Shown: positions 1 to 64,000 of the stretch, piece by piece | Numbering within the stretch: the first letter of the stretch is position 1 | Layout of the letters: each line of letters opens with the position of its first letter | Assembly (NCBI GenBank): GCA_015039465.1 | Contig: MU130245.1 | Span: forward strand, 24,198 to 88,197 | DNA length: 64,000 nt | Source: Phlegmacium glaucopus | Lineage: Eukaryota; Basidiomycota; Agaricomycetes; Agaricales; Cortinariaceae | Direction: 5' to 3' | Notes under the pieces: model-generated | Told to the model about the DNA's origin: nothing | The model's input: only the letters and a program-made list of their open reading frames with translations | Database searches by the model: none | Program-made: the position numbers and the translations under genes

Positions 1-971
1 AACCAACCGTTAAGATTGCTAGAGAGATGGTCCACGAGTTGTCCGCATGTTTCGGCCATATAATGTGGCGCTAGAGTCGCGGCCGTTGTATTACTAGCAG
101 TTTCTATTTCTCTGGGTTCTTACCTCCCCACAAGAATAGCTGACCCTATACACGGAAGACACCTCCTTTGGTCCTCCGCTTGGTGCAAGACCTGCATGGC
201 ACTCAATGCTAAGTATACAGATTAAAACACCAATGATTGTCACATGTACGTCCCGTGAACCCGTAAATAAAGGCACGTTTAGGACGCCTTGTTTCCAGGA
301 TGACATTCTGTATGCGAGACCCTACTATATCTCAGACGGAAGACCCAGGAGTAGATGCTCCGAGATGAGATAGACTTTGTACTGCTCGAGGGGTCAGGAG
401 AGATAGCTTTCTACGTCTGGTAGAAAAGAGATATTGTTTAGTGGAGGGCCCACCTCAGCCATTAACCTCCATGTTGCCGTTCAACTCGCACAATCGTGTG
501 ACACGGGAACTACTTTCAAAAAACCCGGAGCGGTTTAAGCTCTTGAACCCACAGTTGTTTGAGGACCTGGTTGACCCTTTTCAGGAGTTCCTCGCAATAT
601 CATTCCTGCCGTTCTATAGATAGTTTAACCTACTTGGACTACTTTGTACCAAGAGACTCACAGAGGCCCTCCGCCGGTACTTCTACCTCGGAGAGTCGTA
701 GTGAGGTTGGCCTTATTTCAGTGGATGGTTACTGAGGTTGGGTGGTCTACTAGAAGCTTGGACCCTTAGGCGCTTCGGGCTCCTGAAGTTTCACCTGATG
801 AAGGGCTACGGAAATCTGCCTCTAGGTCTTTTTAGATGGGACCATGCCTACGCAGTTCGCTCGAGCTATTGTCTAAGTTACTATGTACCTGACCTACCAA
901 GAAGGGAACCGTTTGCGGGAAGGCTCGTACAGCTGCCCAGTCTCTCAAGCTACAGTTTCGCCGCGTTCATC
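1..971. pseudogene. FK2 3' half, mirrored (FunK1 kinase C-terminal part)
   Basis: Read as plain complement from left to right. Bases 1-32 are the end of intron 2. Exon 3 is 33-199 and carries the catalytic loop HRDLSAGN and the DWD metal site. An intron follows at 200-252. Exon 4 runs from 253 to the stop at 971, which ends in the family tail SKRRK. Exon 4 seems to have a one-base shift near 430, giving a TAA at 433-435, so the C-terminal part after the kinase core may be broken even after the orientation is corrected. As the DNA stands it cannot be transcribed into kinase mRNA. It belongs to the gene whose first two exons are at 3348-5149. Confidence 0.85.
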
Positions 972-2797
972 TATAAACAATCGTCAACATAAAACATAAG
1001 GGGGTAATACAACAATAGCTGGCTAAAAAGCGTCGGTTACCCGTATACCATTGTAAGACTAAGTATGTTGTCGGTTACTCGTCCGCGAGCAACTATTAAT
1101 ATCTACCTCTTTGTGCTGCGTCTACCCAGGTTTCTTATTGTCTTAGTGTTGTGTCCGCCTTTACAATAGCCTCCACAGCAGACTACGGTCCGTAATAACC
1201 TATAGAGGGAGGTAGTGGTCACCTACCTCGGTCTCTGTTGTAAGGTGTATTAGATTCAAACTCTTATAGGGGCATAGATACAGACTTGGTACAGGATCCC
1301 GGGAGTCGCCGGGTCGAATTTTCTGTATTGTTCCAGGCTAGACGAATGAATAACTTCCTCTGGTGGAAAGCTTACGTCCTTGGAGACGGGTCCATTAGTC
1401 TTGCGCTTTATTTTAAGCGTCCTTTGTTGTGGCGGTTTTATTCCCAATCTTAAGTTTATATCGCTTGCAACCAACCTGGCTCTTACGGCCACTACGTTCA
1501 ACACATAGATATTTATCGGAGCGGTAAGTATTTTGTCTAGAGTCTTTTTAACGATAATCTAACTATTTCCGTGTCCTCTCGTAAAGTTATGTTAAACCTA
1601 GGTAACTGTTTAACCTTGTGCGAAGAGTGGTGTTATATCTTAACCCTTGGACTTTCTCGATCGGGATTTGCACAGACATCATATAATATAGCCTTGTTAG
1701 TGAGGACTCACGTCGTGGAGTACCTCTCACGGTGCGGGTTAACATGTAATCTGAGTTATGCAAAAGTTGGTAAGAGCGGACGACTACGATAGGTTTCCAG
1801 ACAGGAGAGCCTCACCTGACCCTGTAGAGGCAGTCCTCTCGAGACTCCTAAGACTGAGTTAGTTCATGTTTGTTGGACCTTACAAGTGCACGAACTTGGT
1901 TCCATCGGTTTCTGCGCTAGGGGTTGATCGAGCTGTCTGGGGATAAGAGTATTCAGACAATTGGATAGGAAAAGTTACCTGCACGGGTCCATATACTTCT
2001 TTCCCATACTTTCCTAGCGGGAGCTCTGTTTCCGAGTAATAGAGCAGCCTAACCTAGGGGTCTACAAGTTTGTACCTACTTTAGTCTCTGTTCTAGGTAT
2101 TAGACTTCCTCTTATAGGAGCAGAAGGCGTACAGGATCCCTGGAGTCGTATGCGATGTTTTGGGATCCATGCTAGCGTTAACAACTTCCCCTGGTGGAAA
2201 TCAGGTCCTTGGAGACGGGTCCATCATCTTTTTACGTTTACGGAGTGACAACTGCCCTTGTAGCAGGGTGCCATCTACGGCGTACTTATCGATTGTGAGA
2301 TACTTTTCTTGACAAGTTTGTTAGTTTTATTGGCTTGTTACCTTCAGTATTTTACGTCTACAGTCTCTCTGAGTCGTCTATCGTTTTTCTTACGCGGAAC
2401 GTTCAAAACTCTCACTGTGAAGCGCTATTTACGTGAATAGGCATGAGATTTTGTCTTCCAGTCGCTTCTGGACTTTCTAGTATTCGGTAGTTACGCGTTT
2501 CGGCCGCTGCACGGACTTTACCTCCGCCTTTGCGTCGTTACGATTTCGCGATTCAAGACTCGCAATGGAGAAGTTTTCAAGTTTTATGATAGTTTACGTT
2601 TTCCCAGAGGGTAACAGTCGATATTTACGTTTTTCTTTATGACAGCGTGCGTTGAATCCTCTCCAAACTCCTAAGACTGCGTTAGTTCATGTTTGTTGGA
2701 CCTTACGGACGATACTTGGTTCCAAGCAAGAACTGAGCGTGTCGTCACCATACTCCGCGGTTTCTGCGCTAGGGGTTGTCGAGCTGCGTTGTTCTCA
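972..2797. other. Mirrored intergenic DNA between FK2 and FK1
   Basis: In mirror reading this is the spacer between two tandem kinase genes. Mirrored copies of the FunK1 5' repeat (the one at 22455-22660) occur near 1855-1900 and 2655-2720. Near 2745-2795 lies the mirrored motif that precedes most truncated kinase copies (as at 27621-27670). Stretches around 1210-1400 and 2090-2230 resemble one another. No gene is seen. Confidence 0.6.
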
Positions 2798-3326
2798 GTG
2801 TTTTCGGCCATATTGATGTGGCGCTAGAGTTTCCTGGGGGGTTGTATATACTATCAGTTTCTCAGTACTTTGCTAGCTGGCACTCAATGTTTCTCAGTTA
2901 TAGAGCTTGAAACACCAATGACTGTCACATATACGTCCCGTGAACCCGTAAATAAAGGCGCGTTTAGAATGTCTTGCTTCCAGGATGACATTGTGTATGC
3001 GATACCCTACTATATCTCAGACGGAAGACCCAGAAGGAGATGCTTCGAGATGAGATAGACTTTGTGCCGTTCCTGGGGACAGAAGAGATACTTGTCTACT
3101 TCCGGTAAAAAAGGGTGTCGTAAGCGGAGGAGTCACCCAGCCATTAGCCGCCATCGCTTTTCTACTCGCACAATTGTGTGACAGACTAGTTAGCTTCACT
3201 AACCCCGCAGCGGGTTAAGCTCTTGCAACCACAGTTGTTTGAGCACCTGGTTGACCCATTTCAGAAGGAACTCGCAATAGAAGGCTTGTCGCCCTGTAGA
3301 AAGTTCAACCTACTAGGACTACTTTG
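2798..3326. pseudogene. FK1, mirrored FunK1 remnant cut by the window edge
   Basis: Read as plain complement, 2938-3326 is an open last-exon sequence of FunK1. It covers the conserved start GTWAF, then LWDDIESAFWV and LGKVF, and ends at the mirror boundary within LDDPDE. Upstream, 2798-2880 is a shrunken remnant of the catalytic exon: the HRD loop is broken by insertion and deletion, and the DWD site is gone. After correcting the orientation this gene would lie downstream of FK2 on the same strand, and would run off the left end of the window. It is a likely pseudogene. Confidence 0.75.
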
Positions 3327-5149
3327 AAAAATGGATAAAATGCGCACCTTCAACCGCATCGGCAATACAGGATAGCAGTACTTTGCACCAGGCAAACGTT
3401 GATAAGTCACGAGCGACAGTATCCAAAATTATACGATGGCAGACCATTCTGAATTTCATGCGCTTCGATTGTAAAGAGTGCTCCTTGACCCATTCCTGCG
3501 TTTCCGTCTCCAGCCCGGGAACGTCGCCGCCCAAACGCATAGATGCCACATGCTTGACATCCTGCTCCTTCAGCATCCGGTAGATAGCTGCTTCGCGAGT
3601 CGTATCCTCCGCATCCTCCTGCCATGAATCTTTCAAAAAACACATTGTAGGTTTTTCTCGATTCTCTTCATTCTCCACGTCCTCTTCATTCTCTACGTCC
3701 TCTTCATTCTCTACGTCCTCTTCATTCTCTACGTCCTCTTCATTCTCTACCTCCTCTTCATTCTCTACCTCCTCTTCATTCTCTACCTCCTCTTCATTCT
3801 CTACGGTCTCTTTATCAGGATCAGGATACGCTAGACAGCGTCTAGTAGCACGACAAAAAGGAAACAGACATGCGCGCGAATATTTCAGAGGCGGAATGAA
3901 GAAGGGAATCCGCTTATTCGTTTTGTCATCTGTCACGTATATGCGAAAGAATCCTTCAAAGGAGAGGAGGTTGTCACCATGCGTGAACTTAGCACCACCA
4001 TGCCAAGTGAATTGATGATATTTCGTAAAGGCGGCCCGCACGGACTCTGGAGGCGTAGCTCGCTCAACTGTGGGGTCGAATCCTCTCTGAAGAAGTGTGA
4101 GTTGGCCATAGCGCAGGTAGAAGTTGAAGATGTGGAATGGGTGCTTGGTGTAATCGAATCGACGAGTGACAACGGCTCCTCGACGGTCCCAGCGAATGAA
4201 GCGAGCGTATGGACCAAAAATCAACATTGAGAAGAAATGGTTTCGAAAAGACATGGACAGGCTGACGCCTGCATAGGCAGTAATCTGGCCGCGCGTGTGG
4301 ATACCAGACTCGGTGTCGGTCTCAACGCTCGAGGAGGCGGAGGGTGTTGGTATGTTGGTCTCGTCCAGTGCGATGTCTTCTTTTTCCTTAGGCTCTTCCT
4401 CGCTGGGTGGTAGTACATTTACGTCCGTCTGGTCCTGATCCTCTTCATCCTCCTTCTCTTCTTCTTCCTCCTCCTCCTCACCCTCATCCGCGTCCCCGGG
4501 CTTCTCGTCTGATACATGGTAGAATGCATCGTGGCTACGGTCAACTTTGAATTCGTGATGTGTCTGTTGGCGCGAGAAGTCGGTACGTGCTTTAAGCTCG
4601 TCGTTCCAGTATGTAGAAATATCTGGGTTAAGGTTATTGCAAGAGGTATCTGGTTGGTTGGTGTTTAGAAAGCGTAGAGCCTGCGGATGTGGAACATTGG
4701 CCCTCGTCAACAATGCCTTTGTGACCCACTTGTCAAGGGCCTTCACCTGAAACAGGTATAAGTTACACATTCAAACAATCTATTATCAAGGATAAACTCA
4801 CAAACGGTTTATACATCACACTTTCTGTCTGCCCTGTTGTGGGAGCCACGCTCCGCAGATCCTTCAGACGCTGCTTTGAAGGGCGTTTTTCCCTGTAAGC
4901 ATCAGGTGTCGTGTCGTTCCATGGTAGGAATTCTTCAAGGAACGTCTGGGGATGCATTCCGACGACAAAGTAATCTTTTGCCTCTAGGGCGATCCTTTCA
5001 TATTCTTTCTTCATATCCCTGGTCGCGTCCATTGAGAACGGTTGAGTTAAAGACTTATGAGCAATAGGGGTCTGGTGAGTAGGAGGAGCTGTTGGAGGTG
5101 GAGTCTTTGGGGGGTCAGGAGCGGGTGCTACTGCTGTCGTTTCTGCCAT
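3327..5149 (-). CDS. FK2, FunK1-type protein kinase, 5' half (exons 1-2)
   Basis: Fungal-type (FunK1) kinase, full-length class, on the minus strand. Exon 1 is 5149-4802 (116 codons from the ATG, which matches FK14). Intron 1 is 4801-4747. Exon 2 is 4746-3348, with intron 2 starting at 3347 and cut by the mirror boundary at 3326/3327. The N-terminus is proline-rich (PPTAPPTHQTP). It is followed by an acidic Glu/Asp tract, the FunK1 N-lobe segments RNHFFSM and IRWDRRGAVVTRRFDY, and RDLSTFAW before the catalytic exon. An eight-unit VENEE repeat at 3661-3804 replaces the short linker of the paralogues. The catalytic loop is only present in mirrored form at 33-199. Role: presumed Ser/Thr kinase, substrate unknown. 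Confidence 0.85.
3661..3804 (-). repeat. 18-bp coding tandem repeat (VENEEE/VENEED x8)
   Basis: Eight perfect-length 18-base units in frame within FK2 exon 2. They encode three VENEEE, four VENEED and one VENEEN. The other copies have a short basic linker (such as NRKNRK) at the same place, so this is a local expansion. It adds a strongly acidic, probably disordered segment. Confidence 0.95.
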
Positions 5150-36008: not shown

Positions 36009-37952
36009 ATGCACAACATAAATGGACCTTGTCAATGCCCTACTTGTAAAGGATACTTGGATGTATGTCTCGCCAAGGGTGGTAGATCACCAGGACTATA
36101 CTATATCCATGTATGTGTAAATATTTTCTTCAAATAGCTGGAACTAACAATGAATCTCAGTGTGCGCCGTGTAAATACCACTATACGTTCATGCCTGGTG
36201 ACATACCTGAGAGCCTGCCACTGTCTTCACCTCCTATTGGGTCATCGTCACAATTCATACTCTCCTCCTCCACTCCCTCATCCTCGACTTTGCCTACAAA
36301 AACCACATGTAGCACCAATAAATGCAAACGAGCATGCAACAAGCTCTGCGTGCGCAAGAAATGTAAGAAATGTTGCACTGCTGTTTCTGCTGGGATGGTG
36401 CCCTCTTGCAACGTCCCTAGCCACGCACGCAGTAGAACTCCACACTCATTTGCTCCAAATGCCTCTCAGTTCCTCCAAAGCACTGCCGGTACCTATGGGT
36501 TGGGACGCTCTCAGCCATTCACTCCAAATCCCTCTTGATCCCTCCGAAGTGTTGCCAACAACTATGGGTTGGGATGCTCTGAACCTGCTGGTGGATCAAA
36601 ACCCCAATATACAACTCTTTCGTGCTGATGAGGAGCGGAGAATAGAGGCCAGTCGCCTTCGAGCTGAGGAGAAGCAGCATGAGCGAGAAGATGCTCAAAT
36701 GGATGAGGCAATGGCTGCATCTCTCCATTCCTCACCCATGTTGGATGCCCCTTCTTACCCAGTCCAGCTTCCCCTCGTCGCACCTTCCTTGTCGGCTACC
36801 TCCTCTCTCTCAGGCTTACCCCCACCCCCACTAGCTCTTATCCCTTCATCATCTTCTATGTCATTAACTGTGTGGAAGCAACCAAAGGTCACAGGACATC
36901 TCGACAAGAACTGGAGGCGTGAACACAAGGACAGGTCTCGAGAGTTGATGGCTATGAGAGGCAAAGAGCAAGGTGATGCAGATATCCACTATCGGTTTTT
37001 GATTCTTATCTGGTTAGAGGTGGGTACTGTTATTCATGAACCTTGCACTGTTACTGACAATTTTCGGTCTTTGCAGAGTGGTACACCCCCAGAAGTACAC
37101 TCTGTCCAGGTTAATCGTTCTTCCTGGCCCAAGTGGAGACTTGACGGCTGCCTTGCAACCGTAGCAAAAATTGGGTTGGGTCCTTTTGACCTGTACAAGA
37201 GCTCACATCGGCATTGGATTCAAATCGACAACTCGTACTCCCATGTCATCAAAACTGATGATTACATTATCCTAAGGTGTCGAAACATGGTTTGCTATGA
37301 ATTTGAGGACCACTTTGCTCGTGTGACTACTAAGCCAACTCACCTGCGGCACAATATGCCAGGTGAACGTCGCAGCTTACAACCATCACTCAAACGCAAG
37401 GCGTCCACCTTGTTGTCGGATGAGATTGATGATGAGATCCTGGATCTCACCCTCACACCAAAACGAAGGTCACAGGCGCCTTCCTCTCCTCTCTCCTCGC
37501 AATCTCCATTAGCTCTCTGGTCACCTATAATCCAGGACCACCATCTTGATAACCCCCCATCTCCCATTCCTGCACGTATCGGCTCCTCAACTTGGCCTAT
37601 TATGATTACTGATTCACCTACCATTTCCGTGTCATCACGTCCATCTCAGCTATCAACAACCTTCCCTAGTCCATCACCCTCCATCGATCCTGCTGCCAAG
37701 TTTCCAGGTGGGATGTACATGATTGATATGCAAAATGGATTTCTTGCCATGGAGCGCTCAGATATGAAAGGTATGCCTATCGAAGACCGTTTGGAGGCAG
37801 CCTTTGGACGTCCAGTTATCTATCGAACATTTTCTGACGCACGTTCACGATGGAAGCTTGCACCTGAGGACAAAAAAAATGCAGGTGTTGCACTTGGTCG
37901 AACTCCCGCTGGGTTATGGTCTGTTGTTACTCGTCACTGGCCTAAGAATTAG
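36009..37952 (+). CDS. Cysteine-rich KDZ-element accessory protein
   Basis: Proposed exons are 36009-36110, 36161-36488, 36550-37019 and 37077-37952 (591 residues, frame kept throughout). Residues 9-41 form a possible GRF-like zinc finger (CQCPTCKG...GLYYIHCAPC). Near residue 90 there is a second dense cluster, CSTNKCKRACNKLCVRKKC. A charged helix follows (DEERRIEASRLRAEEKQHE). A conserved middle domain reads VNRSSWPKWRLDGCLATVAK and HRHWIQIDN, then comes a Ser/Pro-rich region. The C-terminus has a short globular part ending VVTRHWPKN. The second intron is proposed from a duplicated stretch and is less sure. It converges on the transposase within the same element, so a role in transposition or target choice is inferred. 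Confidence 0.65.
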
Positions 37953-62530: not shown

Positions 62531-64000
62531 ATGACTACCCCCAATCCTCGAGTTCCTGCAGAAATGCCAATCCCTCACCAATCTACCACTCCTAAATTCA
62601 AAGGTCACTGGTCTGAAGTGACTGACTTCCTCCAACAATGCGATCAATTATTCAGCTTCTATAACGTCTCAACTGATTCTGATAAATGTCGATTCATGCA
62701 TTCTTACTGTGATCGTTCTACACATGAAATTGTCGAAGGACTTCCCCCATTTATCAACAAAGACTGGCCGAAGCTCAAGGCTCTCATTACAAAGGTCTTT
62801 GATGCTGAACTTGCTGATCAGAAATTCACAATCTTCGATCTTCATCAATTTTCCCTTTGTGCTTGTTCCCTTCCATTAAACTCCCTCGACACCTTCAGAG
62901 ATTACATGCGACAATATATGTGCATCGCTGGATGGCTTCTTGGTCAGAAGAAGATAGACAAGATGGAATACAATCGCTGCTTCTGGCTTGGAATTGATAC
63001 AAAAATTTGTCCCTCCATTGAAGCCAAGATGCATCTCAAGAACAGCAGCCTTGATCCTTCTGCTCCTTTTGAATTCGACGACATTGTTGCTGCTGCAGAA
63101 ATGGTCTTCAAGCGTGATTGATTTGACTTTGGAGTCTTTGATAAACCTAAATCTACCCAATCCAACTCTATCTATCCACAAGACAAAGAAGAATTCACTA
63201 TGTCTAACCTCAAGAAGCTTCTTCAGACTATCTCTTCTGGCAACCCTCCTGCTGATCGTCAACCCCTTGGTCCTATTCAATCTCGCAATATCTACAACAA
63301 TCTTGAGAAAGAAGGCATCAGAGCTCAGAAGACAGATGAAGTTGATTCCTTAATCAAGCAGATGTCGCGACTCACCATTCAAGACCCCAACTACGCTGTC
63401 TATTATTTTCACATCATGAAACTTGATCCTGATATTGGCAAGCTTATCGCACCTCCATCGATGGGAAATTCATCTTCCAGACTTCCTACCACCATGTCCA
63501 CCCCAGCAAATTGATCTTTCCCACCTCATCCTCAGATAAACCCCAACAACAAGATGCTCTGCTTTGGATGCTATGAAGAAGGCCATGGCGTTAATCATTG
63601 TGTTATCTTGGGAGATCTAGCAAGCAATGGAGTGATAATGCGAAATGATGTTGGGAGATGGATAATGAAGGATGGCAGGCCTATCTTCAGGAACCCCAAT
63701 GAGTCCCTTGTCGATGCAATTAAACGACTCGCTGCTCCAGTTATGACAACCAACCTTGCTACTGCCGAAATTGTCAGTGACGACGAAGAAGAAGACATTG
63801 GATTCACCACAATCACTCAGTCCACTCCTATCCTAGCTGTCAATCGCAGTGAGAAGACCACTAAAGCTGCTCGCAAAGAAGTCTTTGACGGAATCACAGT
63901 TCCAACATCGGATCAAGTCAAGGCAAAGCGGATAATAGAGGCAAAGGAGAAAGCAAAGAAGGACGCCCAAGCAATCAGGCCTGGCCCCATTAATCCCCCC
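62531..64000 (+). pseudogene. Retrotransposon gag, interrupted, cut by window end
   Basis: The start ATG at 62531 opens a gag-like protein (FKGHWSEVTDFLQQCDQLF, FMHSYCDRSTHEIVEGLPPF, DTFRDYMRQYMCIAGWLLG), as in basidiomycete Ty3-like elements. A stop at 63119 and another at 63512 interrupt a frame that otherwise continues. A zinc knuckle CFGCYEEGHGVNHC (CX2CX4HX4C) follows at about 63562-63603. Then come an acidic stretch (VSDDEEEDIGF) and a basic helix to the window end. Protease and polymerase would lie beyond 64000. Confidence 0.75.

Follow-up and report, generated by a model that had tools for sequence, protein, structure and literature searches.

Gap filling with long reads is among the closest described systems to the sequence reported here. 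In the parts of the original description of PBJelly that deal with gap handling (English et al. 2012, PMC3504050), a gap is a run of 25 or more N's, the flanking contigs are extended into it, an extension from one side shortens the gap, and the label 'overfilled' goes to gaps in which the extensions fail to overlap. Overfilling is also described in passages of PMC9635638, according to which non-aligning extensions are left side by side and the assembly is expanded. In the assembly passages of PMC7550596, a JGI paper, PBJelly is named as the patching tool for hybrid ALLPATHS-LG assemblies, and Cortinarius glaucopus, whose genome may be one of these, is mentioned. PMC8480192, which also uses Cortinarius glaucopus, names in its corresponding passages Velvet, AllPathsLG, Falcon, finisherSC and Quiver, not PBJelly, for its new genomes. 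A literature search at the level of listings found no report of a gap-fill fault in which sequence is reversed and left uncomplemented, and the passages seen of PMC6240028, PMC9635638 and PMC8848313 hold nothing on such a fault. The same kind of search found no paper on FunK1 together with assembly gaps.

The DNA analysed here, called the window throughout, is a stretch of 64,000 nucleotides from Phlegmacium glaucopus (positions 24198-88197 of contig C88), and the genome searched alongside it comprises 60.5 Mb in 259 contigs. An earlier note on the window had claimed that its first 3,326 bases are kinase-cluster DNA written backwards without complementing. We examined the letters of this block, its junction with the normal sequence and the occurrence of similar blocks elsewhere in the genome, and compared them with the gap-filling behaviour described above.

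Results

Plain reversal of positions 1-3326 followed by alignment, along the lines that the earlier note had proposed, upholds the claim: the reversed string matches 11 other, normally written window copies at 81-88% identity, with alignments of 483-931 bases. As written, the block matched itself alone in alignment against the window, an internal duplicate included, and no equal likeness to kinase genes in an ordinary orientation was seen. When the window was reversed as a whole, all matches at E 1e-3 or better touched positions 1-3328. Naturally mirror-symmetric DNA was ruled out as a candidate on the same result, as the reversed window had no matches at that threshold outside these positions. 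On the contig, the mirror block occupies C88:24198-27523 and takes up precisely the space from a run of N's directly to its left (C88:21289-24197) to the normal contig sequence on its right. We take this run for a probable assembly gap, although some N runs could be masking. The coordinates of the features are collected in Table 1.

The direction of the block can also be read from its composition. A hexamer direction score trained on DNA outside the window was positive in all 60 of the 1-kb segments of 3327-63326, with a lowest value of 0.003, and negative in all three 1-kb segments of the mirror block. With 500-base segments, it was positive in 119 of 121 normal segments and negative in six of the seven that start in the mirror block, the seventh taking in 174 normal bases. 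A second training set, made of stretches chosen without known FunK1 DNA and including other parts of the window, gave positive scores in 30/30 1-kb segments of 3327-33326 and negative scores in 3/3 of the mirror block. The TpA/ApT ratio is 1.45 in the mirror block as against 0.70 in the rest of the window. The hexamer score thus agrees with the mirror reading independently of alignment.

The block was further said to encode FunK1 exons with correct splice sites in its plain complement, and the exon placed at 33-199 is indeed followed there by GT at 200 and AG at 251-252, the predicted donor and acceptor. The stop placed at 971 is present (969-971), but it lies in another frame than the exon, which runs into a stop at 433 in its own frame; the coding stretch therefore has to change frame near 430, likely through an uncorrected long-read indel. 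Translated pieces match the fungal protein kinase family Pkinase_fungal, PF17667, at E 4.9e-23, in agreement with the proposed FunK1 identity, FunK1 being the earlier note's name for this family. The exons of the mirror block score 81.9 bits against its profile, which has a curated cut-off of 24.1. The second, partial gene that had been proposed is a partial FunK1 copy, as the first ~449 bases of the reversed block align to the same set of 11 window copies at 78-84% identity.

Where the mirror block meets normal DNA, we counted high-scoring segment pairs (HSPs) that reach 50 bases or more to either side of 3326/3327. There were 11 such HSPs, one for each of 11 paralogues, after in-place reversal of the block, and none when the block was left as it stands or was complemented or reverse-complemented in place. 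In-place plain complement and in-place reverse complement were rejected as repairs on these counts. Inversion, gene conversion or transposition would be expected to leave a reverse-complement product, which was not seen; of the forms compared, plain reversal alone gave alignments that cross the seam. The predicted 53-base intron that in-place reversal restores has its GT donor in normal DNA, while its AG acceptor and a CTAAC branch-like motif come from the mirrored DNA, and the PF17667 score rose from 37.8 to 136.3 bits once the frame was joined across the seam (590 aa). A correct form of the gene was not found in the public protein set, where P. glaucopus matches to residues 440-590 of the joined frame show 70-89% identity; this absence fits a public record that carries the same error and does not show it.

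Two points on reading frames in the window were noted in passing. The minus-strand FunK1 frame at 3319-4770 contains an acidic tandem repeat (VENEEE/VENEED) and a match to TFIIF-alpha that is below that family's cut-off. At 62531-63121, a 196-aa frame belongs to a multicopy family, and its best hit is a P. glaucopus protein that matches C195 at 100% and the genome at 58 places; the frame matched no Pfam family at E 0.001 and is probably transposon-related. Further P. glaucopus proteins match C88 at 100% over stretches of 100-287 residues.

Table 1 Coordinates of mirrored sequence and associated features in the window and on other contigs
Feature	Position	Strand	Basis or remark
Mirror block	window 1-3326		FunK1-cluster DNA, letters reversed without complement; starts right after N run
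FunK1 exon with HRDLSAGN	window 33-199		readable only in plain complement, left to right
Next FunK1 coding stretch	window 253-971		plain complement; one frame change near 430
Second, partial FunK1 copy	window 2878-3326		reverse coordinates 1-449; in true order at the N-run edge, cut by N run
Seam of mirrored and normal DNA	window 3326/3327		inside predicted 53-base FunK1 intron, restored by in-place reversal
5' portion of this FunK1 gene, normally written	window 3327-4770	-	483-aa open frame at 3319-4770; matches positions 196-299 of the PF17667 profile
Mirror block	C150:36399-37463		flush with N run starting at 37464
Mirror block	C150:~67988-69740		flush with scaffold end
Mirror block	C164:1077985-1079217		flush with N run
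Mirror block	C92:117990-119278		flush with N run
Mirror block	C144, right end 1218604		flush with N run starting at 1218605; left end not fixed
Mirror block	C228, right of N run		homology from 192738; mirror-like composition from N run onwards

A genome-wide search with four mirrored FunK1 pieces as probes located further mirrored FunK1 sites on C88 (17.5-19.3 kb), on C150 (36.4-37.5 kb and 68.0-69.7 kb) and on C125. When the block at the end of C150 was reversed in place, up to four paralogues became continuous with the contig on its left, and in-place reversal of C88:~17.5-19.29 kb allowed one paralogue to span the restored seam, the best seam position having been scanned for in both cases. 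Homology allowed six gap edges on C88 and C150 to be classed, of which two proved mirrored and four normal; one scaffold end is mirrored.

Mirroring is not peculiar to FunK1, an idea that was ruled out by a reversed transposon piece, which also finds mirror copies. This 600-base stretch had 40 scored normal matches in the genome, and when it was reversed all 13 scored candidates matched; they lie on 12 contigs and show 68-97% identity. Seven of these reach 83% or more, and pyrimidine-rich sequence may contribute to the six weaker ones (68-74%). Mirrored DNA is thus not confined to one gene family and is scattered over the assembly, with FunK1 on C88, C150 and C125 and the transposon on its 12 contigs, or 15 contigs in all. 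Four of the 12 transposon contigs (C164, C92, C144 and C228) were fetched for the edges of their blocks. Once the order of the block is reversed, the coordinates of the normal copy run 5380/5379 across the seam on C164, and 9967/9964 and 6509/6504 on C92.

Some further sequences are less clear in direction. C150:3464-4532, compared with C228:195288-195509 and C92:121420-121604, is a retrotransposon stretch of which two short pieces are mirrored relative to the other copies, the two pieces being separated on C150 by 26 A's; this looks like a gap into which both flanks were extended, each with its extension reversed. As the mirrored copy cannot always be identified among C150:3464-4532, C228, C92 and C144, the left end of the C144 block was not fixed. 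The direction score is mostly negative at C144:1218900-1220500, beside the N run, and at C5:~283400-286100, around a 25-A run, and each of these may be a further mirror block.

On C125, mirrored and normal copies of the same sequence are found together. C125:416289-417197 is the mirror of 418692-419600, with 99.56% identity over 909 ungapped bases, where the fetched piece ended; the two copies are 1.5 kb apart, and exactly 25 A's (C125:418666-418690) stand just ahead of the normal one. The mirror block on this contig runs into its own right flank. Runs of 26 A's were found at the mirror join at C88:19292-19317 and at a probable mirror join at C150:3650-3675. The joins on C125 and at 19.3 kb on C88, together with the scaffold end of C150, are evidence that is independent of N runs.

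Genome-wide, runs of exactly 25 A occur 157 times on the plus strand and once on the minus strand, runs of exactly 26 A 72 times and once, and runs of exactly 24 A zero times and once, which for the 25-A and 26-A runs together is 229 against 2. The orientation of contigs is arbitrary, and a fixed-length A run on one strand therefore looks like a placeholder introduced at the level of text. PBJelly puts 25 N's at overfilled gaps. The runs seen here are of A, not N, but the 25-A run is likely a 25-N spacer that was recoded as A, and may stem from such gaps. Eight further 25-A sites were fetched: a local mirror match was present at those on C10 and C24, the site on C5 was called by composition only, the site at C88:141454-141478 had no mirror DNA, and those on C1, C41, C130 and C164 gave no clear call either way. 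With such a mixed picture, the spacer seems to be a general sign of gap joins, with only a subset of the fills mirrored.

Discussion

That the mirror block is an artefact of the record or the assembly is near certain. The explanation that we prefer, and hold with very strong confidence, is that positions 1-3326 are ordinary FunK1 DNA and that, in a long-read gap-extension step, probably of PBJelly, the sequence added to the right-hand contig was put in backwards. The geometry is that of a one-sided extension: one side of the block abuts an N gap or a contig end, and the other becomes continuous with the contig after reversal, a continuity that is weaker at the end of C150 and at 17.5 kb on C88. 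From this geometry we infer that a contig end could have been extended with sequence from the opposite strand, which would need to be reverse-complemented before re-insertion. If only half of that operation were applied, so that the sequence was complemented and not reversed, the product would be the same string as one reversed and not complemented, namely a plain reversal in place that has lost continuity with its own contig. Any overlap between a fill mirrored in this way and the far contig would go unrecognised; the gap would then stay open or be flagged as 'overfilled', and some overfilled gaps may have been left with a 25-base spacer in which a later step turned N into A. The block can be explained without any process in the cell, and is most likely a data error that does not call for a novel type of DNA rearrangement.

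The same kind of artefact could have arisen at another step, in a scaffolder, a finisher, another gap filler or the conversion of the record, a reading that overlaps with the preferred one and that we consider unlikely, if still a serious contender. It gains from the fact that PBJelly is a name that we only infer, and that the passages of PMC8480192 name different tools for its new genomes. Contigs C88 and C195 (196,354 and 738,212 bases) also differ in length from the longest ones listed for the public P. glaucopus proteins that match them at 100% (207,479 and 742,386 bases), and the assembly may thus exist in more than one version. Reversal of a whole contig, however, would not keep one side continuous with the flanking contig, and here one side is continuous within a few bases after reversal while the other stops where an N run begins or the scaffold finishes; on C125, the block enters its right flank as an extension would.

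Of the three readings offered in the earlier note, corruption of the record is strongly supported by the N-run edge, the continuity at the seam, the recurrence elsewhere and the 25-A spacer, and the other two found no support. A deliberate change of the window alone is not borne out because other contigs carry the same error. A planted test that altered the window or the genome sequence on purpose is easily imagined, as plain reversal is simple to script, but we judge it highly improbable: the mirror copies of kinase and transposon are spread over 15 contigs and, where examined, mostly sit beside N runs or 25-A joins, the 25-A or 26-A runs recur at 229 plus-strand places, and a plant would hardly reproduce both the continuity at gap edges and the overlap into a flanking contig. 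Taken literally, the record would describe real mirror DNA, and since inversion, transposition and gene conversion, to our knowledge, never yield a mirror image, some novel parallel-strand copying in the cell would have to be supposed. We give this next to no credence, and nothing was found in favour of mirroring by a biological route. Against it stand the ends of the blocks at N runs and at a scaffold end, the spliced gene that reappears on in-place reversal, the exactly-25 poly-A runs lying almost all on one strand where contig orientation is arbitrary, and the near identity of the C125 copies at their short distance.

With misoriented gap extension as the preferred explanation, the apparent impossibility of the block is removed and new DNA chemistry is not required. 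Genes at some gap edges, FunK1 kinases and transposons among them, are unreadable on either strand of the record, and family counts may be off for families that cluster in gaps. The error also leaves an easy signature by which other gap-patched assemblies can be screened, namely matches found only after reversal, a flipped TpA/ApT ratio and exact 25-A runs on one strand. More tentatively, and with more doubt than conviction, the half-applied reverse complement may be a fault of a widely used long-read gap filler that has placed mirror DNA in many public hybrid assemblies. If so, mirrored fills would hide real genes and create false ones in those assemblies, and a one-strand excess of exact 25-base A or N spacers together with the flipped TpA/ApT ratio would reveal the fault anywhere.

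Compared with PBJelly as described in the consulted parts of PMC3504050, the blocks are alike in that several of them end at N runs and that the overlap into the far contig on C125 went unrecognised, and unlike in that neither reversed uncomplemented fills nor a 25-A spacer is mentioned there. The genome inflation attributed to PBJelly in passages of PMC9635638 shares with C125 the placing of extensions side by side, but the extra sequence is not described in those passages as mirrored. Compared with the PF17667 family, the mirror block codes for a member of it once read in the right order, with 11 normal relatives within the window; no peculiarity was seen in the gene as such, and only the order of its letters in the record is wrong.
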